Source: an uncultured Candidatus Competibacteraceae bacterium (GTDB taxonomy: Bacteria > Pseudomonadota > Gammaproteobacteria > Competibacterales > Competibacteraceae). From it: a stretch of DNA of 52,973 bases. The stretch spans positions 1 to 52,973 of the forward strand of contig CAIRMO010000051.1 of the NCBI GenBank assembly GCA_903879705.1. Reading direction: 5' to 3'. The notes beneath the pieces were generated by a model. That model did no database searches, was not told where the DNA came from, and saw only the letters and a list, made by a program, of their open reading frames with translations. This document shows positions 14,533 through 29,869 of the stretch, one piece after another (position 1 is the stretch's first letter; the number at the start of each line of letters is the position of its first letter). Position numbers and translations under genes: made by a program.

Positions 14533-17500
14533 GTGAGCGAAGGGATTGCCATTATTGGCATGGCCGGGCGCTTTCCCGGCGCAACGACCATTGATGAATT
14601 CTGGCGGATCGTTCGGGAAGGCGGCGATGCCATCACCGCTTTCAGCGAGGCGGAGTTGCTGGCTGCGGGCGTGTCCCGCACCGAACTGGCCGATCCGCAT
14701 TATGTGCTAACCGCTCCGGTGCTGGATGACATCGCTGGTTTCGACGCCCCATTCTTCGGCTTGAGCGCGGAGCAGGCCGAATGGTTGGACCCCCAGCATC
14801 GGCTGTTCTTTGAATGTGCCTGGGAAGCCTTGGAAATGGCCGGCCATCCGCCAGAACGCTTCAAGGGCGCGATCGGCGTGTTTGCGGGTTGTTCGATCAG
14901 TTCCTATCTACTGTTCAACCTGTTGCCAAGCCTGCGGGCCGGAGCTGCACCGGCGACGTTGCTGGCCATGATCGGCAATGAGAAGGATTATCTGGCCAGC
15001 CATCTGGCCTATCTGCTCGGCCTGACCGGCCCTAGTATCGGCGTGCAAACCGCCTGTTCGACATCGCTGGTCGCGGTGCATCTGGCCTGTCAAAGCCTGC
15101 TGGCCGGGGAATCCGATCTGGCGCTGGCCGGCGGCGCGAACGTGCGGGTCCCGCACCGGGTCGGCTACCGCTATGAAGAAGGCTCCATTTTGTCGGCGAC
15201 CGGGCAATGCCGCAGCTTCGATGCCGCTGCCGATGGCACCGTGTTCGGTTCGGGGGTGGGCGTAGTCGTGTTGCGTCGCCTGGCCGACGCGGTGGCGGAC
15301 GGTGATCCGATTCAGGCGGTGATTCCAGGTTCAGCGGTGAACAACGATGGCGGACGCAAGGCCGGCTACACCGCGCCGAGTGTGGACGGTCAGGCGGCAG
15401 TGATCGCCGAGGCGCTGGCGGTCGCTGGCGTGGAAGCGGCTTCCATCGGCTATATCGAAGCGCATGGCACGGGGACGCCCATCGGCGATCCGATTGAAAT
15501 CCGCGCCTTGAACGAGGTGTTCCGGGGTCTTCCCCAGGGCAGTATCGCGTTGGGCAGCGTCAAGGCGGCGTTTGGCCATCTGGAGGCGGCGGCGGGCGTG
15601 GTCGGACTGATGGCGGCGGCGCTGGCCGTTAAACACGGTCTGTTGCCGCCCATCGCCCATTTTCGGCAGGCTAATCCGCTGCTCGGTTTGGAGAAGACGC
15701 CGTTTATGCCCGCTGCCACGGCGCGGCCCTGGAGGTCTGGCGGGCCACGCCGGGCCGGGGTCAGCTCTTTCGGAATCGGTGGGACGAATGCGCATGTGGT
15801 GGTGGAGGAAGGGCCTCCTGGCACCTGCCCGGCGGCGCAGTCGAACCACCCCGGCGCTGCCCGCCACCCCGCCTCATCCAAGGAGGGGCATTGGTCGGTG
15901 CTATGCCTGTCGGCGCGAGATGAGGCGGCGCTGATTGAATTGCGTCAGCGTTATCGGGATGTTTTGACCGATGAGGCCGATTTTTCGGCACTCTGCCGGA
16001 CTGCGGCGTGGGGGCGGCGGCATTTTGAACAGCGGGTGGCGGTGGTCGCCGGTTCGACGATGGAGGCGCGGGAGTTGCTGGCCCAGGCAACCCCGGTGCG
16101 GATTGCACCACATCCCCGTTTGGGATTGTTATTCAGCGGTCAGGGCTGTTGGGTGGCAGGCGCTGGGCGGGGTTTGGCGACGTTGCCGGTGGCAGGCGCG
16201 ATTCTCGCCCGGGCCGAAGCGCTGGTTCCTGGCATTCAGGCCGCGCTGTCTGATCCAGCGGGCGATGGGACAAATACCGGGATCGCTCAACCGGCACTGT
16301 TTGCGCTGCAATGGGCGCTGGTCGCGCAATTACAGGCTTGGGGAATTGTGCCGGTTGCAGTGGCGGGACACAGCCTCGGTGAACTGGCGGCGGCGGCCAC
16401 CGCTGGAGTTCTCGGCTGGGAAGACGGGTTGCGGCTGGCAGCGGCGCGGGGCCGGTTGATGCAGGCGCTCCCATCCGGAGGAGCGATGGCGGCGGTATTT
16501 GCTGCGGCGAACGTGGTCCAGGCGACGCTCGGTTCTGAAGCCGCTACGGTTAATCTTGCGGCGTTCAACGCCCCGAAGACGGTCGTATTGTCGGGAGACA
16601 GTGCGGCGTTGCAGCAGGTATTGGGCCGGCTGACCGCTCAGGGCATCGCCCACCAGTGGCTGAAAGTGGCCCACGCTTTTCACTCGCCGCGCATGGAACT
16701 GATCCGGGCCGAACTGGACACGGTCGCTGCTGCCTTCCCGCAGCACCCGCCCCATCTGAACTGGGTGTCCACGCTGACCGGCGGCATGATCAGTCAGCCG
16801 TCTCTTGATCACTGGTCCCGCCATGCCCGCTACCCGGTGCGTTTCACCGAGGCGCTGCAAACACTGCATACGCTGGGCTGCACGGCGTTTCTGGAAATCG
16901 GTCCTGGCACGACCTTGACCGCATTGACCCGAATCCAGCAGGACTCCGCCTGCATCGTGCCCACACTGGCGGATGCTGATGAACCGCGTGCGCTGTTGAA
17001 CGCCGTTGCTGCGCTGTATGTCCACGGTCTGACTGTTGACTGGGCGGCTCTCCTTGGTTCCGGTCCCCGCGCATCCGTGCCGACGTATCCGTTCCAGCGC
17101 CGCCGCTATTGGCGCGATCCACCCCTCTTTCCCAACGCCTCTCCCCGCGTGGGAGAGGGGAGCCTCTTGCCCGGCCAGGCGTTTTCTACGCCACTGGCCC
17201 GGCGGTTGTTCGTTGCGACCTTGTACCCACACGCTCCCGACTGGCTGGATGAACATCGCGTCGATGACCGGGTGATCCTGCCTGGCGCAGTTCATGCCGC
17301 TCTGGCCTTGGCCGCCGGCCTGAACGGACTCAGCGCGTTGAGTATCGAGGCTCCGCTGACTATCGGCCCGGACGGCATCGAATTACAGACGATTCTCCAC
17401 GAAGAGGGCCGGGTGCAGATTTATGCCCGCGACCGTGGAGCGACCGCTTGGCAACGGTACGCCAGCGCCGAACCCGGGCGGGTTGCCGCCGATCTCGGTA

Positions 17501-20500
17501 TGGAGAATCTCGCGGCTCTGATGGCCCGTTGTGATACGCCGGTCTCCCCGGAATCGTTCTACCAACGACTGGAAGCCAGCGGGATTGCGCTGGGGCCGCG
17601 TTTCCGGCGTCTCGTGGACCTCCGCACCGGTCAGGACGAAGCGCTGGCCCGGTTGTGCGCGCCTGATGACCTGGAACCGAACGGTCTGCCGGTGCATCCG
17701 CTGGTACTGGATGCGCTGTTTCAGACGCTGGGTGCAGCACTGATCGGGACTGATCGCCCGGCGCATCTGCCCGTCGTGCTGGATGGGTTGCAACTGGCGG
17801 TGGCGGCCAATCCTGACGCCGCCGTTTGGTGTCACGCGATCTTGCGTTCGCCCCAGCCGGGCGATGACGGCCTGATCGGCGATCTTGGCCTGCTGGCCGC
17901 CGATGGAACCCGGTTACTCCAGGTTGAGGGTCTAGGCTGTCGGCCCGTGCGATCCGGGGCGGTCATTCGCCGTCATCTCTATACCCCGGTCTGGCGACCG
18001 TGCGACCCTGCCCGCTGGCCGGCGCCGTTAACCCTCGCCAGTGAGGTGGCCCGTACCGTTGATCTGGCCGACTACCTCGACTATTTGCCGCAACTGGATG
18101 CGCTGAGTACGGCCTATGTGGCGCAGGCCTTTATGGCGCTCGGCGCACGTTTTGTACCCGGCCAACCCGTCCAATTATCGGTTCCTGTCGCGCCCCGCTT
18201 TGTCCGGGTATTACCGCGCTTGTGGCGGATGCTGAAAGAGGACGGCCTGATCGACGCCCATCAGCGAACCGTGCGCGTTTCCGATACCGATCCCGAACGG
18301 CTGTTGACCGAAATTCGCGCCCGTTACCCGGCGCAGGCTCCGGAAACCGGAATGCTGGCTCGCTGCGGCGCAGCCCTGGCGGAGGTGTTGACCGGAACCG
18401 CCGAACCCTTGGACCTCCTCTCCCTAATCCGCTCTCCCATGAATGGAGGGGCAGGTACCCGGCGTTTACTGGAACAAGACGATGCCGGGGCGATTTATGC
18501 CGAATCGCGCTATGCCAGCGCCCTGAATCAACTGGCGGTCAAGGCACTCACCCGCGCTTTGCCACCGAACCTGCCCCTGCGGGTGCTGGAAATCGGTGGC
18601 GGCACCGGTGGGACCACGCGCCATTTGTTGCCCATCTTCCCCGCGACTACGGCGGAATACCGGTTTACCGATGTCTCTCCGGCCTTTCTGCTACCTGCGG
18701 AACAGACCTTCGCCGATTACCCGTTTCTGCACACCGCCCTGCTCGACATCGAACGCGACCCCGCCGCGCAGGGCATCGACGCGGGCGGTTATCACCTGGT
18801 CATCGCCGCTCATGTTCTGCACGCGACCCGTGACCTGGCCGAGGCCGTCGCTCATGCCGCTCAGGCCCTGATTCCCGGCGGTTGGCTCCTGTTGATCGAA
18901 GGTCTTCGTCCCTCGCGCTGGCTCGATCTGACCTTCGGCTTGACCGAGGGCTGGCAGCGCGGGGTGGATCGGGAACTCCGGCCCGACGATCCCCTGATCG
19001 ATGCCGATCATTGGCGTCGGCTGTTAGTCGAGCGGGGCTTTGATGAGGTCGCGGTGCTGACGCCCGGTTCAGGCCGGCTGGCCGATCAAGGTGTCATTCT
19101 GGCGCGTAAGAAGGCCACCTTGCCGAAAGCAGCCATGATCTGTCGGGCGGCGCTGGATGCGATCGATCCAGCGGCGGCGGTGCTGCCCATGCTGCAAACC
19201 GAACTGGGCCGGACGGCGCGCCTGCTGGTCGCAACCTGTGGCGCTCAACGCCTGCGGCCCTGGGAAACGCCCAATCCCGTCCAAGCGGCGGTGCTGGGAC
19301 TGGTCAAGGCGGCGGCGCTGGAGCGACCGACGACCCTGGTTCGACGGGTGGACCTCGATCCCCTCGACGAGAACAATGAGGCGACGTTGGCTATTGAAGC
19401 TGAAATTGACGATGGCGAGAGCGAAGTGGCCTGGCGCGACGGTCGGCGTTACGCCTTGCGGTTGACCCGTGCTGAAAGTGATCCGCCGTTACCCGATCGC
19501 TTCCGCTTGGCCCCGACAAACCCCGGCCTTCTTGACTCCTTGTCGCCCCAGCCGTTGCCGGAACGGATGCCGGGACCGGGTGAAGTGGGCATCGCGGTCG
19601 CCGCCGCCGGAGTGAATTTCAAGGACGTGTTGACGGTGTTGGGTACAGTGGATCGGGCATCGGGGATCGGGGATCCATTAGGCGGCGAGTGCGCCGGAAC
19701 CATCGTCGCGGTCGGTGCAGGCGTCACCGGATTCCACCTCGGCGACCGGGTGTTGGCGCTGGCGGGCGGTAGTTTGGCCAGTCACGTCATCGCGCCGGTT
19801 AGTCGCGTTGCCCATCTTCCTGCCGGCCTGACTTTGGAACAGGCCGCTGCGCTGCCGGTGGCTGCCAGCACTGCCTTGTACGCCTTGCGCGAAGGGGGGC
19901 GCTTGCAAACCGGCCAGCGCATCCTGATCCATGCCGCGACGGGTGGCGTCGGCCTGTTCGCTATCAAACTGGCGCGCGCGGCAAAAGCTGAAATATGGGT
20001 GACGGCGGGCGCTCCCTGGAAACGCGCCTGGCTGCGGCGGATGGGTATTCAGCACGTCTTCGATTCCCGCGATCCGGGATTCGCCGCCGAGGTGATGACG
20101 GCCACTGATGGCGAGGGGGTGGATTGGGTGCTGAACAGCCTGAGCGGAGAAATGATCCCCGCCAGCCTGTCGGTTCTTAAACCGGGAGGCCGTTTTATCG
20201 AGATCGGTCGCGCCGGAATCTGGAATGCTGCACAGGTTGCGACCCGGTTCCCGAAGGTCGATTACCGGATTGTCGCTCTCGATACCGCCAGCGAAGCCGA
20301 AGGTGGCCGGCTGCTGCACGCGGTGCTGGAGGCGGTTGCTGCCGGCGAGTTGTCGCCGCCGCCGCTGACCTTGTTGCCGATGAGCCGCGCTGCCGAGGCG
20401 TTCCGGCTGATGCAGCAGGCCCGGCATTTGGGCAAGATCGTTCTCACCCATCGCCCGCCATTCCGCTTCCGGCCGGATCGCGGCTATTTGATCACCGGTG

Positions 20501-21687
20501 GTTTGGGCGGACTGGGGTTGGCCGTTGCGGAATGGGCGGTCAGCCAAGGCGCACGACATCTGGCGCTGGTTTCCCGCCATGTGCCCGATGCGGAAACGGC
20601 TGCTCGGTTGGAAACATTGCGCGAGCGCGGTGCAACTGTGCAATTCATCGCGGCTGATTTGGCAGATGAGGCCCGGATTCACCGAATGCTGGCCGAATTG
20701 CACACCGTACTGCCGCCGCTGGCGGGCATTTTCCACGCCGCCGGGCGGCTCGATGACGCACCGCTGGCGGAACAAACCCCGGAACGTCTCGCCAAAGTCG
20801 CCGGCCCCAAACTGACGGTTGTTACCCCTTTGGCCACCGCGAATACTGATCTCGATGCCTTCGTCCTGTTCAGTTCTGCTGCTGGAGTGCTGGGTTCGCC
20901 CGGTCAGGCCAACCATGCCGCCGCCAGCGCCCGCCTGGACGCCCTGGCGCTCCACTATCAGGCGCAGGGGTGGCCGATGATCGCCATCGATTGGGGGGCC
21001 TGGCGCGACATTGGCGCGGCGGCCCGGCGGCAGGTGGGCGAACGGCTGGCGGAAACCGGCATGGGTGCATTGACCCCGGTGGAAGGGCTGGCGGCGCTGG
21101 CCTGGATTTTGGAACATCGACCAGCGCAGATTGCGGTGCTGCCGATTGACTGGCCCAAATTGCGCGGTCACTTCGGGGCGAATTTACCACCGCTGTTTCG
21201 TGAGTTATCCCTCACTCCCAGCCCCTCTCCCGTGCGGGGAAAGATCCGCCGGTGTCCACTCGCCACTCGCCACCCGCCACTCGCTCTCGATGACCTCGCC
21301 GTCTTATCGCCGGTGCATCGGATTGAACGCCTGGCCGGGTTGATAGAAGCTCAAGCACGGGGTTTGCTCTCCATTGGCGATGCACTACTGCGCCATGACC
21401 GGCCATTGAATGAACTGGGGCTGGATTCCCTGCTGGCGGTAGAACTGCGCAACCGGCTGAGCGTTCTGGCCGGGGCTTCCCTGCCGGCGACGCTGTTGTT
21501 CAATTATCCAACCATCGTAGCGCTGGCCGAACATCTGGCGGCGTTGATGCTGCCTGATTCACCACCTGAACCTGATTTCATCTCCCCTCAAGATCCAGCG
21601 GGCGCAATGGAAGAAGAGATTCTTTCCTTGGATGAAGACGATCTCGACGCCATTCTCCGGGAAATGGAACAGCGGCATTTGCAGTAA
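14533..21687 (+). CDS. Type I polyketide synthase, single reducing module
   Basis: A 2,384-residue complete module. Order and landmarks: ketosynthase (1-425, C175 in TACSTSL, EAHGTGTPIGDP, GHLEAAAG); acyltransferase (about 530-830, S614 in GHSLGE, HAFHS motif favouring malonyl-CoA); dehydratase (about 885-1160, H908 and D1060); C-methyltransferase (about 1330-1480, VLEIGGGTGGTT); enoylreductase (about 1670-1970, HAATGGVG); ketoreductase (1984-2200, GGLGGLG); acyl carrier domain (S2299 in LGLDSLLAVE); acidic C-terminal tail that may be a docking segment. GTG start with GAGGTG 5 nt upstream. It resembles iterative highly reducing synthases that make methyl-branched fatty chains. In the ketoreductase the usual catalytic Tyr and Asn of G-Q-x-N-Y-A-A-A-N are His2128 and Ser2132. 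No thioesterase, phosphopantetheinyl transferase or tailoring gene is adjacent. Confidence 0.93.
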   Translation: MSEGIAIIGMAGRFPGATTIDEFWRIVREGGDAITAFSEAELLAAGVSRTELADPHYVLTAPVLDDIAGFDAPFFGLSAEQAEWLDPQHRLFFECAWEALEMAGHPPERFKGAIGVFAGCSISSYLLFNLLPSLRAGAAPATLLAMIGNEKDYLASHLAYLLGLTGPSIGVQTACSTSLVAVHLACQSLLAGESDLALAGGANVRVPHRVGYRYEEGSILSATGQCRSFDAAADGTVFGSGVGVVVLRRLADAVADGDPIQAVIPGSAVNNDGGRKAGYTAPSVDGQAAVIAEALAVAGVEAASIGYIEAHGTGTPIGDPIEIRALNEVFRGLPQGSIALGSVKAAFGHLEAAAGVVGLMAAALAVKHGLLPPIAHFRQANPLLGLEKTPFMPAATARPWRSGGPRRAGVSSFGIGGTNAHVVVEEGPPGTCPAAQSNHPGAARHPASSKEGHWSVLCLSARDEAALIELRQRYRDVLTDEADFSALCRTAAWGRRHFEQRVAVVAGSTMEARELLAQATPVRIAPHPRLGLLFSGQGCWVAGAGRGLATLPVAGAILARAEALVPGIQAALSDPAGDGTNTGIAQPALFALQWALVAQLQAWGIVPVAVAGHSLGELAAAATAGVLGWEDGLRLAAARGRLMQALPSGGAMAAVFAAANVVQATLGSEAATVNLAAFNAPKTVVLSGDSAALQQVLGRLTAQGIAHQWLKVAHAFHSPRMELIRAELDTVAAAFPQHPPHLNWVSTLTGGMISQPSLDHWSRHARYPVRFTEALQTLHTLGCTAFLEIGPGTTLTALTRIQQDSACIVPTLADADEPRALLNAVAALYVHGLTVDWAALLGSGPRASVPTYPFQRRRYWRDPPLFPNASPRVGEGSLLPGQAFSTPLARRLFVATLYPHAPDWLDEHRVDDRVILPGAVHAALALAAGLNGLSALSIEAPLTIGPDGIELQTILHEEGRVQIYARDRGATAWQRYASAEPGRVAADLGMENLAALMARCDTPVSPESFYQRLEASGIALGPRFRRLVDLRTGQDEALARLCAPDDLEPNGLPVHPLVLDALFQTLGAALIGTDRPAHLPVVLDGLQLAVAANPDAAVWCHAILRSPQPGDDGLIGDLGLLAADGTRLLQVEGLGCRPVRSGAVIRRHLYTPVWRPCDPARWPAPLTLASEVARTVDLADYLDYLPQLDALSTAYVAQAFMALGARFVPGQPVQLSVPVAPRFVRVLPRLWRMLKEDGLIDAHQRTVRVSDTDPERLLTEIRARYPAQAPETGMLARCGAALAEVLTGTAEPLDLLSLIRSPMNGGAGTRRLLEQDDAGAIYAESRYASALNQLAVKALTRALPPNLPLRVLEIGGGTGGTTRHLLPIFPATTAEYRFTDVSPAFLLPAEQTFADYPFLHTALLDIERDPAAQGIDAGGYHLVIAAHVLHATRDLAEAVAHAAQALIPGGWLLLIEGLRPSRWLDLTFGLTEGWQRGVDRELRPDDPLIDADHWRRLLVERGFDEVAVLTPGSGRLADQGVILARKKATLPKAAMICRAALDAIDPAAAVLPMLQTELGRTARLLVATCGAQRLRPWETPNPVQAAVLGLVKAAALERPTTLVRRVDLDPLDENNEATLAIEAEIDDGESEVAWRDGRRYALRLTRAESDPPLPDRFRLAPTNPGLLDSLSPQPLPERMPGPGEVGIAVAAAGVNFKDVLTVLGTVDRASGIGDPLGGECAGTIVAVGAGVTGFHLGDRVLALAGGSLASHVIAPVSRVAHLPAGLTLEQAAALPVAASTALYALREGGRLQTGQRILIHAATGGVGLFAIKLARAAKAEIWVTAGAPWKRAWLRRMGIQHVFDSRDPGFAAEVMTATDGEGVDWVLNSLSGEMIPASLSVLKPGGRFIEIGRAGIWNAAQVATRFPKVDYRIVALDTASEAEGGRLLHAVLEAVAAGELSPPPLTLLPMSRAAEAFRLMQQARHLGKIVLTHRPPFRFRPDRGYLITGGLGGLGLAVAEWAVSQGARHLALVSRHVPDAETAARLETLRERGATVQFIAADLADEARIHRMLAELHTVLPPLAGIFHAAGRLDDAPLAEQTPERLAKVAGPKLTVVTPLATANTDLDAFVLFSSAAGVLGSPGQANHAAASARLDALALHYQAQGWPMIAIDWGAWRDIGAAARRQVGERLAETGMGALTPVEGLAALAWILEHRPAQIAVLPIDWPKLRGHFGANLPPLFRELSLTPSPSPVRGKIRRCPLATRHPPLALDDLAVLSPVHRIERLAGLIEAQARGLLSIGDALLRHDRPLNELGLDSLLAVELRNRLSVLAGASLPATLLFNYPTIVALAEHLAALMLPDSPPEPDFISPQDPAGAMEEEILSLDEDDLDAILREMEQRHLQ
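15841..15889. repeat. Repeat family D embedded in frame in the PKS KS-AT linker
   Basis: 49 bp beginning TCGAACCACCCCGGCGCT and ending ATCCAAGGAGGGG. The same unit occurs outside genes at 50624-50672. Here it is read as amino acids of the KS-AT linker (about residues 437-453, SNHPGAARHPASSKEG), between conserved domains. Confidence 0.75.
17121..17164. repeat. CTCTCCC/GGGAGAG palindrome embedded in the PKS AT-DH linker
   Basis: Contains CTCTCCCCGCGTGGGAGAG, an inverted repeat of the type found in intergenic repeats of many proteobacteria. It encodes part of the linker LFPNASPRVGEGSLLPG (about residues 868-884). Confidence 0.6.
18414..18453. repeat. Degenerate CTCTCCC palindrome embedded in the PKS linker before the methyltransferase
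   Basis: Reads CTCCTCTCCCTAATCCGCTC then CCATGAATGGAGGGG, a decayed member of the same palindrome class as 17121-17164. It encodes SLIRSPMNGGAG (about residues 1297-1308). Confidence 0.5.
21207..21287. repeat. Palindrome plus short tandem unit embedded in the PKS KR-ACP linker
   Basis: CCTCACTCCCAGCCCCTCTC with CGTGCGGGGA, then three or four imperfect CCACTCGCCA units. The translated stretch (LTPSPSPVRG, then RCPLATRHPP) is unlike the flanking ketoreductase and carrier domains and looks like inserted intergenic sequence. Confidence 0.6.
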
Positions 21688-23282: not shown

Positions 23283-24344
23283 ATGACCGATCTCCCATCC
23301 GCTGTCGCCCCGCCTGAACCCAGGAAACCCAGCCTGTTTGAGGTGCTGAACCGGCCAATTCATTTCCCGTTTGGCAAGGATCGCGCCCCCGCTACAGCGC
23401 CGGAATCCCCATCGATTGAACCTACATCCTTCGCCCGCTTGCGGGACCGGCTGCGCCGCACCCGGCACCATCTGGTTTCGGGACTGGCGGGACTGTTTGC
23501 CGGACGGAAACTCGATGATGAGGCGCTGGAAGAGCTGGAAAACCGTCTGTTGCTGGCTGATGTCGGGGTGGACGTCACCACCCGGATCATCCGGCGCTTG
23601 ACCGAGCGGGTTTCGCGCCAGGCGTTGCCCGATGCGTCGGCCCTGCTTGAGGCGTTGCGTGAGGAACTGCTGGCGATTCTCGCCCCTTGCCAGCAACCGT
23701 GGCAGCCCTCCGACTCCCGGCCCTACGTCATTCTTACAGTGGGCGTCAATGGGGCGGGCAAAACCACCACCATCGGTAAACTGGCCCAGCGGCTGCAAAA
23801 CGAAGGCCATTCAGTGTTGCTGGCCGCCGGCGACACTTTCCGCGCTGCCGCCATTGAGCAATTGCAGGTGTGGGGCGAGCGCAACCGGATCGCGGTCATC
23901 GCCCAGCGCCACGGCGCGGATTCCGCCTCGGTGATTTACGACGCGATTCAGGCCGGCCAGGCGCGGGGAATCGATGTCGTGATTGCCGACACCGCTGGCC
24001 GGCTGCACACCCAAGCCAACCTGATGGCGGAACTGAAGAAAATCAAACGGGTGATGGGCAAGGTTGATCCCACCGCCCCGCAGGAGGTATTGCTGGTGCT
24101 GGATGCCAGCACCGGTCAGAACGCCCTGAATCAGGCGGTGCAGTTCCATGAGGCCGTAGGGGTGACGGGCCTGATCCTGACCAAGCTCGACGGCACCGCC
24201 AAGGGCGGCATCGTGTTTGCCATCGCCCGCCGGCTGGGTCTGCCGATCCGCTTCATTGGCGTTGGCGAAAGCATTGAGGACTTGCGCGAGTTCGACGCCG
24301 CTGAGTTCGTGGCCGCCTTGCTGGAAGAGGAAAAAACCGATTAA
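23283..24344 (+). CDS. ftsY: Signal recognition particle receptor FtsY
   Basis: 353 residues. After a variable N-terminal region come the four-helix N domain (about 60-145) and the SRP-type GTPase G domain with [15 protein letters not shown] (about 154-168), the DTAGR loop (about 236) and [10 protein letters not shown] (about 300). It docks the SRP-ribosome complex at the inner membrane for co-translational insertion. In E. coli the order is ftsY-ftsE-ftsX-rpoH; here rpoH follows directly and the cell-division transporter genes ftsEX are missing from the locus. Confidence 0.95.
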
Positions 24345-24390
24345 TCGGGAACGAATTCAGTCGAAGGTTCGGCGGGCACTCATAACCGGT

Positions 24391-24417
24391 TTGGCACTCT
24401 TGCCGTGTGAGTGCTAA
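24391..24417. promoter_or_regulatory. CIRCE operator overlapping the rpoH promoter
   Basis: TTGGCACTC-N9-GAGTGCTAA matches the HrcA operator consensus TTAGCACTC-N9-GAGTGCTAA at 17 of 18 arm positions with the exact 9-nt spacer. The element overlaps a sigma-70-like promoter: TTGGCA (24391-24396), 18 bp, TAAAAT (24415-24420). An HrcA repressor bound here would cover both promoter hexamers of rpoH, whose ATG is at 24464. Confidence 0.88.
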
Positions 24418-24463
24418 AATTGGGCCATCCCAGTAATGAGTAAACGGAAGGAGTGAATTAACG

Positions 24464-25336
24464 ATGACCACAACTGCGCTGGTTCCCCGCATTGACCATC
24501 TACCGATTACGGCCGATAGCCTGGAAAGCTACATTCAGGCTGTCGGTCGGGCGCCGATGCTGAGCGTCGAGGAAGAGCAGGAGCTGGCTCAACGGCTGCA
24601 ACTGCGCCACGATCTGCAAGCCGCGCAACGGCTGGTTATGGCCCACCTGCGCTTCGTAGTGCATATCGCCCGGGGCTACATCGGCTATGGCTTGCCGCTG
24701 GCTGACCTGATTCAGGAAGGCAATGTCGGCCTGATGAAAGCTGTCAAGCGATTCGATCCAGCCTACGGGGTGCGGCTGGTATCGTTTGCGGTCCACTGGA
24801 TCCGTGCCGAAATTCACGAATTCATTCTTCACAACTGGCGGATCGTCAAGGTGGCCACCACCAAAGCCCAGCGCAAACTGTTCTTCAAGCTGCGCAGCTC
24901 CAAAAAGCGGTTGGGCTGGCTGAATCACGATGAAGTGAACACCATCGCCCGCGAGTTGGGGGTCAGCGCCGCCAATGTTATGGAAATGGAAGCGCGGCTC
25001 AGCGGCCACGACCTGCCATTCGACCCTGCCGACAACGACAGTGACGACGAGCATGAAGCCTTTACGCCCGCGGCCTATCTGCGCGACGAGCAGGCCAACC
25101 CGGCCGAGGCCTTGGAGCGGGACGATTGGGAAGAGCAGAGCACCCGCCGGTTGAGCGCGGCGCTGGAGCTGCTGGATCCCCGCAGCCGGGACATCGTGCA
25201 GCGTCGCTGGCTGAATGACGACAAGCCGACCCTGCACCAACTCGCTGCTGAATATCGGATTTCCGCCGAGCGCATCCGGCAACTGGAAGCCAACGCCATG
25301 AAAAAGCTGCGGACCGCATTGCCCGCGCTGGCCTGA
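24464..25336 (+). CDS. rpoH: RNA polymerase heat-shock sigma factor (sigma-32)
   Basis: 290 residues with sigma regions 1.2 ([12 protein letters not shown]), 2 ([19 protein letters not shown] and [15 protein letters not shown]), the RpoH box QRKLFFKLR near residue 135, and region 4 ([18 protein letters not shown]). It directs RNA polymerase to heat-shock promoters. AAGGAG lies 10 nt before the ATG. Uniquely for this neighbourhood, a CIRCE operator overlaps the promoter, so transcription is probably under HrcA control. It is the last gene of the ftsY stretch; a hairpin with T-run follows at 25439-25466. Confidence 0.95.
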
Positions 25337-26583: not shown

Positions 26584-29100
26584 ATGACTGACCACGAAGC
26601 CGAAGAAACCCTCGAAGCAGAAGTCGTGGGTGAGGACGACGAGAACGACGCGGACGACAACAACGAAAGGTCCGCCAATACCGTTGTCGCCGCTGCCGAT
26701 ATTCTGCCCATTACGATCTATCTGCTGCCACTGTCCGAACGGCCCTTCTTCCCGGCCCAGGCGTTGCCGTTACTCCTCAACGAAGAACCCTGGCTGCCGA
26801 CCATTGAAGCCGCCGCTGCCTGCGAACAACGGGTGATCGGCTTGGCGCTGGTCAAGCTTGACAGCGCAGAAAATGTCAGTCCCGATGATTTTTACGACGT
26901 CGGCACCGCTGCCCGGATGCATCAATTAACGCACAACGAAGGCCGGCTGCAATTCATTGCCCAAGGTCTCAAACGGTTCCATATTGAGCAGTGGCTGTCC
27001 ACTGTTCCCCCCTATCAGGTCCAGGTGAGCTATCCGAGTGAGGATGACGAGGCGGGTCCCGACGAATTGCGGGCTTATTCATTGGCGGTGATTAATACCC
27101 TGAAAGAACTGATTCCGCTCAATCCCCTGTACTCCGAAGAACTGAAGTTCTTTCTCAATCGTTTCAACACCCACGATCCATCGCCACTGGCTGATTTCGC
27201 CGCCAGCCTGACTACGGCCAGCAAGGGTGAATTACAGGAAATTCTCGCCACCGCGCCGGTGCTGGAACGGCTGAAAAAAGTCATCGTGCTGCTGAAGAAG
27301 GAACTGGAAGTCGTCAAGCTCCAGAGCCACATCCGCAAGCAGGTTGAAGAAAAGATGAGTGAGCATCAGCGCAAGTTTTTTCTGCGCGAGCAGCTCAAGG
27401 TCATTCAACAGGAACTCGGGATTGCCAAGGATGATCGCACCGCCGATGGGGACCGGTTCCGCGAGCGGTTGGCCACTCGCCAGGTTCCCGAACCGGCGTT
27501 GAAACGGATCCATGAAGAACTGGAAAAACTCGCCATTCTTGAAGCCGGGTCCCCGGAATATGCCGTCACCCGCAATTATCTCGATGCGCTGACCGATTTG
27601 CCGTGGGGAATCTACTCCACCGACAATCTCGATCTGAAACATGCCCGCGAGGTGCTGGATCGGGATCATGACGGGCTGGAGGACGTGAAAGACCGGATCA
27701 TCGAATTTCTGGCGGTGGGGGCCTTAAAAGGCCAGGTCGGCGGCTCGATCATTCTGCTGGTTGGCCCGCCCGGGGTGGGCAAAACCTCCATTGGCCGGTC
27801 AGTTGCCGCCGCGCTGGATCGCAAGTTCTACCGGCTCAGCCTGGGCGGGATGCGCGATGAGGCCGAGATCAAAGGCCATCGCCGCACTTATATTGGCGCA
27901 TTGCCCGGCAAGTTTATTCAGGCCATTCGGGAAGCGGGTACCGCCAATCCCGTCATCATGCTGGATGAAGTGGACAAGATTGGCGCGTCCTATCGCGGCG
28001 ATCCGGCCTCGGCGCTGCTGGAAGTGCTGGATCCGGAGCAGAACAACGAATTTCTCGATCATTATCTGGATGTGCGCTTCGATTTATCCAAGGTCCTGTT
28101 TATCTGCACTGCCAATCAACTCGACACCATTCCTGGGCCATTGCTGGATCGGATGGAAACCACCCGCCTGTCTGGCTACATCACCGCTGAAAAGCTGCAA
28201 ATCGCCCGCAATCATCTCTGGCCGAAACTGCTGGAACGCAGTGGCATGAGCCGGGATCGGATTCAACTTGATGAGGCGACGCTGCGCCAGATCATTGAGG
28301 GCTATGCCCGCGAGGCCGGGGTCCGTAATCTGGAAAAACAACTAGGACGGATTGTGCGCAAGAGCGCAGTCGAGATTGTCAATGGTCGTGAAGGATCGAT
28401 TGTGGTCGAACCGCTGGAACTGGATCGCTATTTGGGCAAGCCGCCATTCAAGCCAGAAACGCTGATGAGCGGACTGGGGGTAGTCACTGGACTGGCGTGG
28501 ACGGCAATGGGTGGGGTAACCCTTAATATCGAAGCGACCCGGGTTCACACCAAGAATCGCGGCTTCAAACTGACTGGGCGGCTGGGCGAGGTGATGCAGG
28601 AGTCGGCCAACATCGCCTACAGTTACGTCAGCGCCCATCTGGCGGAATACCAGGCGGATCCAAAGTTCTTCGATGAAGCCTTTGTCCATCTGCATGTCCC
28701 GGAGGGCGCAACCCCCAAGGATGGCCCCAGCGCCGGGATTACTATGGCGACCGCCTTGTTATCGCTGGCGCGGGGACAACAGCTAGAGCGGGCTTTGGCG
28801 ATGACCGGTGAATTGACTCTGACCGGCCTGGTGTTGCCGGTGGGCGGCATTCGTGAAAAGGCCATAGCCGCACGGCGGGTAGGCATTCACGAACTGATTC
28901 TGCCGGAAGCGAATCGGGGCGATGTCGAGGAGTTGCCGGATCATATTAAGGAGGGCTTGACCATTCATTTCGTGGAGCGGTTGCGGCAGGTGGTGGACTG
29001 GGCGTTCACCCCGGAAACGATCCAGACTTTGTCCATGGAAAAGGCGGAAGAGACAAAAAATACAAAAGGGCCGAAAAAGAGGAAACCGCGAATTGACTAG
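26584..29100 (+). CDS. lon: ATP-dependent protease Lon
   Basis: 838 residues, about 50 longer than E. coli Lon owing to an acidic N-terminal extension (residues 1-38, rich in Asp and Glu). Domains: LON substrate-binding (about 42-235), coiled coil, AAA+ ATPase with GPPGVGKT (about 394-401) and MLDEVDK, and the protease domain with catalytic dyad S716 (KDGPSAG) and K759 (GGIREKA). It degrades misfolded and regulatory proteins in the cytoplasm. The C-terminal tail is lysine-rich. The acidic head and divergence in the LON domain suggest it may be a second Lon rather than the housekeeping copy; the window cannot settle that. Its stop overlaps the next gene's start by 8 bp. Confidence 0.94.
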   Translation: MTDHEAEETLEAEVVGEDDENDADDNNERSANTVVAAADILPITIYLLPLSERPFFPAQALPLLLNEEPWLPTIEAAAACEQRVIGLALVKLDSAENVSPDDFYDVGTAARMHQLTHNEGRLQFIAQGLKRFHIEQWLSTVPPYQVQVSYPSEDDEAGPDELRAYSLAVINTLKELIPLNPLYSEELKFFLNRFNTHDPSPLADFAASLTTASKGELQEILATAPVLERLKKVIVLLKKELEVVKLQSHIRKQVEEKMSEHQRKFFLREQLKVIQQELGIAKDDRTADGDRFRERLATRQVPEPALKRIHEELEKLAILEAGSPEYAVTRNYLDALTDLPWGIYSTDNLDLKHAREVLDRDHDGLEDVKDRIIEFLAVGALKGQVGGSIILLVGPPGVGKTSIGRSVAAALDRKFYRLSLGGMRDEAEIKGHRRTYIGALPGKFIQAIREAGTANPVIMLDEVDKIGASYRGDPASALLEVLDPEQNNEFLDHYLDVRFDLSKVLFICTANQLDTIPGPLLDRMETTRLSGYITAEKLQIARNHLWPKLLERSGMSRDRIQLDEATLRQIIEGYAREAGVRNLEKQLGRIVRKSAVEIVNGREGSIVVEPLELDRYLGKPPFKPETLMSGLGVVTGLAWTAMGGVTLNIEATRVHTKNRGFKLTGRLGEVMQESANIAYSYVSAHLAEYQADPKFFDEAFVHLHVPEGATPKDGPSAGITMATALLSLARGQQLERALAMTGELTLTGLVLPVGGIREKAIAARRVGIHELILPEANRGDVEELPDHIKEGLTIHFVERLRQVVDWAFTPETIQTLSMEKAEETKNTKGPKKRKPRID

Positions 29101-29869
29101 AAACCTGCGCCCTCAACGGGTTTTCGGTTGGCGGGTCACTGGCGGTTTGTTGCTATTGGCGTTGTCGCTGGGCCCGGTTCAAGCGGGTTGCGACGATCCG
29201 CCGGCTCGGCGCGTTAACTGGCTGCGTTGCGACAAACCCGGCGCGGATTTGCACGGCGCGGATTTGCGCGAGGCGGTACTCACCCAGGTCAATCTGGCGA
29301 ATGCCCAAGTGGCCGGCGCTCGTCTGAATAACGCTGATTTGGGCGGTGCGACTTTGACCGATGCTGATTTCACCGGTGCGATCTTGACCGATGCCCGGCT
29401 GGTTTCGGCCCAATCAGAGCGGGCGGTATTCTCTGGCGCGAATCTGGCTGGAGCGCGGCTGGAACGGGCGGTGTTGACCGGAGCGAATCTGAGCGGTGCG
29501 GATCTGAGTGGGGCGCGACTGGATCAGGCGGATCTGCGCGGGGCAAACCTGACGGGATCCAAACTGGGTAAGGCGAATCTGGCGCAAGCCAATTTGGCCG
29601 GTGCGCAATTGCAAAATGCGGAGTTAAGCAGTGCAATCTTGAGTCGGGCGGTACTGGAGAATGCGGTATTGACCGGCGCGAAGCTGCAAGGCGCGAATCT
29701 GACTGGCGCTACCTTGATCGATGCCGATTTCAGCGGGGCGAATCTGGCCGGGGCGAATCTGGCCGAGGCCCGCCTGACCGGCGCTCGCTTCACTGACGCC
29801 AGGCTGGACAGCACCATCTGGCCGGATCGGCGGCGCTGTCAGCCCGCGTCGGTGGGCGAATGCCGGTAG
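29093..29869 (+). CDS. Exported pentapeptide-repeat protein
   Basis: 258 residues starting at a TTG that overlaps the lon stop; AGAGGAA is 8 nt upstream, so translation is probably coupled to lon. A signal peptide (about 1-33, LLLLALSLGPVQAGC) is followed by a cysteine-containing segment (CDDPPARRVNWLRC) and about 34 tandem A(D/N)LxxA pentapeptides from residue 45 to 240, which fold as a right-handed quadrilateral beta-helix. Such helices often serve as binding surfaces, and some mimic DNA, but an exported one is unlikely to act on gyrase. The role is unknown. Confidence 0.85.
   Translation: MTRNLRPQRVFGWRVTGGLLLLALSLGPVQAGCDDPPARRVNWLRCDKPGADLHGADLREAVLTQVNLANAQVAGARLNNADLGGATLTDADFTGAILTDARLVSAQSERAVFSGANLAGARLERAVLTGANLSGADLSGARLDQADLRGANLTGSKLGKANLAQANLAGAQLQNAELSSAILSRAVLENAVLTGAKLQGANLTGATLIDADFSGANLAGANLAEARLTGARFTDARLDSTIWPDRRRCQPASVGECR

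Follow-up and report, generated by a model that had tools for sequence, protein, structure and literature searches.

Locus organisation

The window, meaning the whole stretch of 52,973 bases that was analysed, carries rpoH between positions 24464 and 25336 with ftsY directly preceding it on the same strand. The open reading frame scores 409.1 bits against TIGR02392 (rpoH_proteo), above the cut-off of 323.1, and is a true rpoH. Its nearest counterparts among the named genomes are those of Candidatus Competibacteraceae and Candidatus Contendobacter, with 80 and 79% identity, and the DNA probably comes from a relative of these. In E. coli the gene next upstream of rpoH is ftsX, thus the ftsEX pair is absent between ftsY and rpoH here. 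The features of the locus are as follows.

23283-24344, + strand: ftsY, the upstream neighbour of rpoH (TIGR00064, 366.7 bits)
24375-24381, + strand: degenerate sigma-E-like -35, GGCACTC, 5/7 to GGAACTT; its AAC core is broken, unlike that of the other 29 rows of the family
24391-24417, + strand: CIRCE operator TTGGCACTC-N9-GAGTGCTAA, predicted HrcA site, from motif scans; kept in 30/30 family members examined
24391-24396, + strand: -35-like hexamer TTGGCA in the left CIRCE arm, from the promoter scan; A-to-G at CIRCE position 3 in 31/114 class sites, 2 at the mirror position
24398-24402, + strand: degenerate sigma-E-like -10, TCTTG for TCnnA, over the left CIRCE arm and spacer, from the family comparison
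24412-24420, + strand: extended -10-like TGC-TAAAAT, whose first six bases end the right CIRCE arm; TAnnnT in 101/114 class and 30/30 family sites
24421-24463, + strand: predicted short leader with Shine-Dalgarno-like GGAAGGAG at 24446-24453, from the sequence
24464-25336, + strand: rpoH, sigma-32, 290 aa (TIGR02392, 409.1 bits; NF005143, 424.2 bits)

The intergenic region between ftsY and rpoH contains TTGGCACTC-TTGCCGTGT-GAGTGCTAA at 24391-24417 on the + strand. This agrees with the consensus TTAGCACTC-N9-GAGTGCTAA at 17 of the 18 arm bases, and the operator is therefore near the consensus that marks the HrcA/CIRCE regulon (1/18 mismatch). It is the sole match with three or fewer mismatches in the window. 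None of 100 dinucleotide shuffles of the window contained any CIRCE match, and a chance origin was dismissed on that ground. The mismatch scan and the shuffles together confirm the near-perfect operator, 17/18 arm bases, of the original prediction.

A promoter-like sequence, TTGGCA-N18-TAAAAT, spans 24391-24420, with 10 of 12 hexamer positions matched and a TG ahead of the second hexamer. Its -35 and -10 hexamers and its spacer of 18 fall within the form of a housekeeping sigma-70 promoter (spacing 16-18 nt). The left CIRCE arm opens with the -35, while the right arm closes with TGC-TAA, the start of an extended -10 that is completed by AAT at 24418-24420, outside CIRCE. One promoter of this type was observed in 24250-24520 against a shuffle mean of 0.2 (sd 0.5), which bears out the claim that CIRCE overlaps it. 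The rpoH ATG at 24464 lies 43 nt past the -10 hexamer; the promoter had been correctly placed just 5' of rpoH, but the earlier distance of 44 bp is not what was measured. With regard to an RNA thermometer like that of E. coli rpoH, an Rfam search of 24300-24800 at E up to 1 matched no family. The RNA fold of 24426-24690, which takes in the leader and the 5' coding part, has a z of -1.44, and 16 of 200 shuffles fold equally well.

HrcA and its targets in the genome

The genome was scanned over 3.62 Mb in 148 contigs. The presence of hrcA had been named beforehand as a test, and one intact copy was found, at 341.6 bits to TIGR00331 (cut-off 197.2) and 229.5 bits to PF01628. The gene (contig C109; L003 1-3663) is alone on its stretch and separate from dnaK, which is on contig C145. 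Two neighbours were named by eye: immediately upstream, a recombinase-like ORF whose start is MerR-like, and downstream, in convergent orientation, a PurA-like ORF.

Only two CIRCE sites with at most three mismatches occur genome-wide, one at rpoH (1 mismatch) and one at groES (0 mismatches). The suggested check for CIRCE at groESL thus returned a perfect site before groES, so that the operator at rpoH is the same as that of the groESL (class I heat-shock) system in the same genome. The reversed-pattern control gave 1 match over the whole genome at the same threshold, which puts the background at about one at the 3-mismatch level; the rpoH and groES sites are far better. The same genome-wide scan found no CIRCE with up to three mismatches near hrcA or dnaK.

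Upstream of dnaK there are sigma-32-like sites, CTTGAA-N15-CCCCAC at about 835 nt and ATTGAA-N15-CCCCAC at about 109 nt before a GIDLGTT-like motif, both of them loose, shuffle-free matches. Another loose match, likewise without a shuffle control, is CTTGAA-N12-TCCCCT upstream of the groES CIRCE. Such looser sigma-32-like matches, for which there is no shuffle control, sit before grpE/dnaK and before groES, and the exact sigma-32 consensus CTTGAA-N12-16-CCCCAT has zero matches in the whole genome. Since dnaK has no CIRCE but does have sigma-32-like sites upstream, a cascade running from HrcA through sigma-32 to CIRCE-less genes is plausible on the sequence.

Co-occurrence of the rpoH CIRCE with hrcA

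An evenly drawn sample of 185 genomes represented the class (Gammaproteobacteria in the GTDB sense). Of these, 130 have hrcA; an rpoH-like match is present in 184 and exceeds the cut-off in 168. The DNA upstream of rpoH was covered in 148 of the 185 genomes (150 rows), among the matches listed; the 37 left out comprise 20 with rpoH over the cut-off and 17 without one over it. Two genomes, G032 and G177, have two rpoH copies each and the better was counted. One copy in each carries a CIRCE-like site, with 1 mismatch in G032 (L193) and 3 in G177 (L165). G080, whose motif was missed in the batch scan, was scanned separately and brings 113 class sites to 114.

Within these 148 genomes, CIRCE with up to three mismatches lies upstream of rpoH in 104/111 that have hrcA versus 10/37 that lack it (Fisher test 3.6e-15, blind to kinship). 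Among genomes at least 95% complete, with G080 left out, the counts are 88/95 and 5/29. The hrcA-bearing genomes whose rpoH is without CIRCE are seven: G026, G072, G113, G121, G148, G151 and G172. Five of the ten hrcA-lacking genomes with an rpoH CIRCE are at least 95% complete, and their CIRCE-like sites are found in G016 (L260), G094 (L143), G128 (L192), G135 (L258) and G075 (L145). Candidate explanations for these five are that hrcA was missed or has diverged, that it was lost recently, or that another regulator uses the same site. To judge from these counts, hrcA in this class, as sampled, is nearly always accompanied by CIRCE at rpoH.

The named genomes show a similar division. At 24 of 80 rpoH loci the 120 nt preceding the match contain CIRCE with two or fewer mismatches; the next best locus has 5 mismatches, leaving a clean gap between CIRCE and non-CIRCE loci. 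hrcA was searched for in 50 of the 80, namely all 24 CIRCE genomes and 26 of the 56 CIRCE-less ones hand-picked for variety, and was found in 21/24 versus 0/26. The three CIRCE genomes with no hrcA match (L030, L037, L064) are metagenome bins. E. coli, stated in the original prediction to have no HrcA, indeed gave no match in the control genome list.

Within the window's own family, 33 of 39 genomes have an rpoH over the cut-off and 30 were examined; all 30, the window counted in, carry CIRCE at rpoH. The named, class and family samples overlap in part: L069 and G071 share hrcA coordinates, and the promoter sequences of L004-L007 turn up again among the family rows. The counts are kinship-blind. 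On these counts, CIRCE at rpoH is the usual arrangement among hrcA-bearing genomes of the sampled class and no local oddity.

The operator as a promoter

TAnnnT closes the CIRCE core in 101/114 class rpoH sites and in 30/30 family sites. As a control, 30 groES loci were kept from 181 genomes with groES, and 26 of them have CIRCE with at most three mismatches. The third base past CIRCE is T in 102/114 rpoH sites versus 3/26 groES sites (Fisher 1.2e-14). The two arms also differ in the changes they tolerate. CIRCE position 3 is G, turning the start of the left arm into TTG, in 31/114 rpoH sites, but just 2 sites show the mirror change on the right arm (p 1.3e-7); the G080 site, the 114th, has neither. 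The corresponding numbers among the 26 groES controls are 4 and 2. HrcA should be indifferent to which arm changes whereas a promoter directed towards rpoH is not, thus the left/right asymmetry reads as promoter. The rpoH CIRCE sites of the class therefore look to have been selected as promoters too. CIRCE positions 4-6 and 22-23 are invariant across 113 class rpoH sites; a promoter without an operator was ruled out because the arms are conserved beyond promoter need.

The arrangement at groES is different. In 19/26 controls (L262-L291) a -10-like hexamer ends on the first CIRCE base, and the groES operator, lying just 3' of this hexamer, would cover the start site. At rpoH, by contrast, CIRCE spans -35 to -10. 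From this comparison one operator is predicted to serve in two geometries.

Overlap of CIRCE with a sigma-E-like element

A second promoter-like element overlaps many of these sites. The search used the sigma-E consensus GGAACTT-N15-17-TCnnA, in which GGAACTT is the -35 and TCnnA the -10. A GGAACTT-like -35 starting 16 bases 5' of CIRCE matches at 5/7 or better in 61/114 class sites and at 6/7 or better in 44/114; the former count is 0/26 at groES. Offsets -17 and -15 contribute some further sites and offsets -30 to -18 give at most 4. Taking -15 to -17 together, 73/114 sites have a -35 of at least 5/7, of which 65 carry A as the twelfth CIRCE base as well, and 41/114 have no such -35. Two further offsets score high at the lower threshold, +2 with 31/114 at 5 or more and 0 at 6 or more, because of CIRCE's own fixed sequence, and -5 with 10/114 and 0, which takes in the TT that is fixed in CIRCE. 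An A stands at position 12 in 82/114 rpoH sites versus 8/26 groES sites (p 1.7e-4). Preceded by the TC in the left arm, this A completes TCnnA, a sigma-E-like -10 built from CIRCE bases. Among CIRCE-less rpoH upstream regions, the element at 6/7 or better plus TCnnA is limited to 10/36 of the class (shuffles of the 36 give 0.65) and 23/56 of the named genomes (shuffle-free).

Among the 30 family genomes, 18 have the sigma-E-like -35 at offset -16 and the other 12 have it at -17, and TCnnA is present in 26/30 rows. It is absent in the window, whose element is the lowest-scoring of its kind and the only one of the 30 family rows without the AAC core. GGCACTC with TCTTG falls short of a sigma-E promoter of the E. 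coli rpoH P3 type, and no exact GGAACTT-N15-17-TCnnA occurs anywhere in the window. Because the element is degenerate, sigma-E control of rpoH in this genome was dropped from the main claim, and the claim for the window is limited to HrcA and a sigma-70-type promoter. In this genome it is apparently the sigma-E input that has decayed, CIRCE and the sigma-70 promoter being retained. On the class-wide alignment, the sigma-E overlay belongs to the wider set of rpoH CIRCE sites, in most of which it is predicted to be nested with CIRCE.

At E. coli rpoH, TGAACTT-N16-TCTGA stands 121 nt ahead of the start codon and is presumably the sigma-E-dependent promoter P3. It shares its -35/-10 geometry with the sigma-E-like element that is nested with CIRCE at the majority of the 114 class sites; the window's own counterpart is degenerate. 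No CIRCE was seen by eye in the stretch inspected upstream of E. coli rpoH, in contrast to the window.

Discussion

Control of sigma-32 is taught from E. coli, where it acts mainly through translation, stability and the binding of chaperones. HrcA is a repressor whose activity depends on GroEL, and modulation by GroEL is the general model of HrcA function. We propose that 24391-24417 is an HrcA operator on the core promoter of rpoH, through which protein-folding stress would derepress rpoH together with groESL, with sigma-32 relaying the signal onward; we put the probability of this reading at roughly 0.83. HrcA control of sigma-32, the central claim of the original prediction, is supported at the level of sequence by (i) the presence of hrcA, (ii) CIRCE at both rpoH and groES and (iii) the co-occurrence of the rpoH site with hrcA across the class. 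On sequence grounds, repression of rpoH by HrcA is thus strongly implied.

When bound to CIRCE, HrcA would cover the -35, the spacer and the -10 and keep the housekeeping RNA polymerase off. Under protein-folding stress GroEL would be taken up by misfolded protein and HrcA activity would fall. The inactivity of HrcA would then jointly derepress both CIRCE targets in the genome, rpoH and groESL, and the extra sigma-32 would switch on CIRCE-less genes such as dnaK. What we infer in this scheme is that HrcA binds and represses, where transcription starts, how large the effect is, that GroEL provides the signal and which genes sigma-32 targets.

HrcA could instead repress rpoH as a direct heat sensor, unfolding or releasing DNA when warm, with GroEL occupancy mattering little. 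On either reading the evidence from sequence is identical. The general model of HrcA is nevertheless one of GroEL modulation, and groESL, as a co-target, supplies the feedback loop that the GroEL model requires. A precedent for direct sensing is indicated by the title of a study that describes the HrcA of Campylobacter jejuni as an intrinsic thermosensor (PMC8533110). We consider direct sensing unlikely here, although a serious competitor to folding-stress control.

The inverted repeat could also act in RNA, as a hairpin in read-through transcripts that alters the stability or translation of rpoH mRNA. CIRCE is an inverted repeat with perfect arms, ftsY closely precedes it in the same orientation and no terminator-like site was found in 24250-24520. 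Against this, the repeat would sit upstream of the predicted start, its presence tracks hrcA, and both the substitution asymmetry (left TTG and right TAA kept, 31 versus 2) and the conserved T three bases past CIRCE fit a promoter rather than a hairpin. An action in RNA is accordingly very improbable. A relic, whereby rpoH is no longer under HrcA and the sequence is kept as a promoter, is slightly more improbable still: 10/37 genomes lacking hrcA retain the rpoH CIRCE, which means that either the site can persist once hrcA is gone or hrcA escaped detection in them, but the other 27/37 have no CIRCE at rpoH, the arms are conserved far beyond promoter need, with positions 4-6 and 22-23 invariant in 113 sites, and the hrcA of this genome is present and intact.

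The RpoH of Geobacter sulfurreducens was reportedly studied by Ueki and Lovley in 2007. CIRCE had been predicted 51 nt before the rpoH start codon of that organism (Rodionov et al. 2004, PMC545781, Table 8). As in the window's genome, this site is accompanied by CIRCE at groESL, and HrcA control of sigma-32 was predicted in silico. The resemblance is incomplete. G. sulfurreducens belongs to another phylum (the delta group) and is the sole genome in that Table 8 with a CIRCE at rpoH, and the one constant HrcA target in the delta-group genomes of that paper is given as groESL. Its hrcA-grpE-dnaKJ carries CIRCE, whereas in the window's genome only groES and rpoH do. The sections of PMC545781 available to us make no mention of a sigma-E overlay at its rpoH. 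The same paper cites Permina and Gelfand (2003) for the beta, gamma and epsilon groups, and rpoH sites may already be contained in that work. In Xylella under nitrogen starvation, one report has hrcA up four-fold and rpoH up two-fold at differing times (PMC3224663); this does not look like simple HrcA repression of rpoH, though the times differ.

Among the titles and abstract openings brought up by full-text searches of an open-licence library, none concerned CIRCE/HrcA control of rpoH in this class or a CIRCE overlapping a sigma-E promoter, which speaks only weakly for novelty. This kind of arrangement is already known, and it may be the scale and the nested promoter design that are new.

For the hrcA-bearing Gammaproteobacteria (GTDB sense) as a whole, one compact element may serve three regulators of sigma-32. 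CIRCE would be nested with two promoters, one for sigma-E, with a -10 drawn from CIRCE bases, and one for sigma-70, with the two CIRCE arms as its -35 and -10, such that HrcA gates both housekeeping and envelope-stress input. The E. coli arrangement, sigma-E P3 and no CIRCE, would then be a remnant after hrcA loss, derived rather than ancestral. We hold this broader proposal to be evenly balanced between right and wrong. Should HrcA control rpoH in most relatives that have hrcA, the cell would gauge its folding capacity (GroEL) directly when the sigma factor gene is transcribed, and the two classical heat-shock circuits would merge in one cascade. If CIRCE also overlies a sigma-E promoter, cytoplasmic and envelope stress would converge on about 45 base pairs.

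Two other reading frames of the window may be mentioned. Positions 14533-21687 hold a 2384-aa type I polyketide-synthase-like ORF that scores far under the cut-offs of the whole-protein models it matched, and 29093-29869 encodes a 258-aa pentapeptide-repeat protein, for which several such families matched below cut-off.
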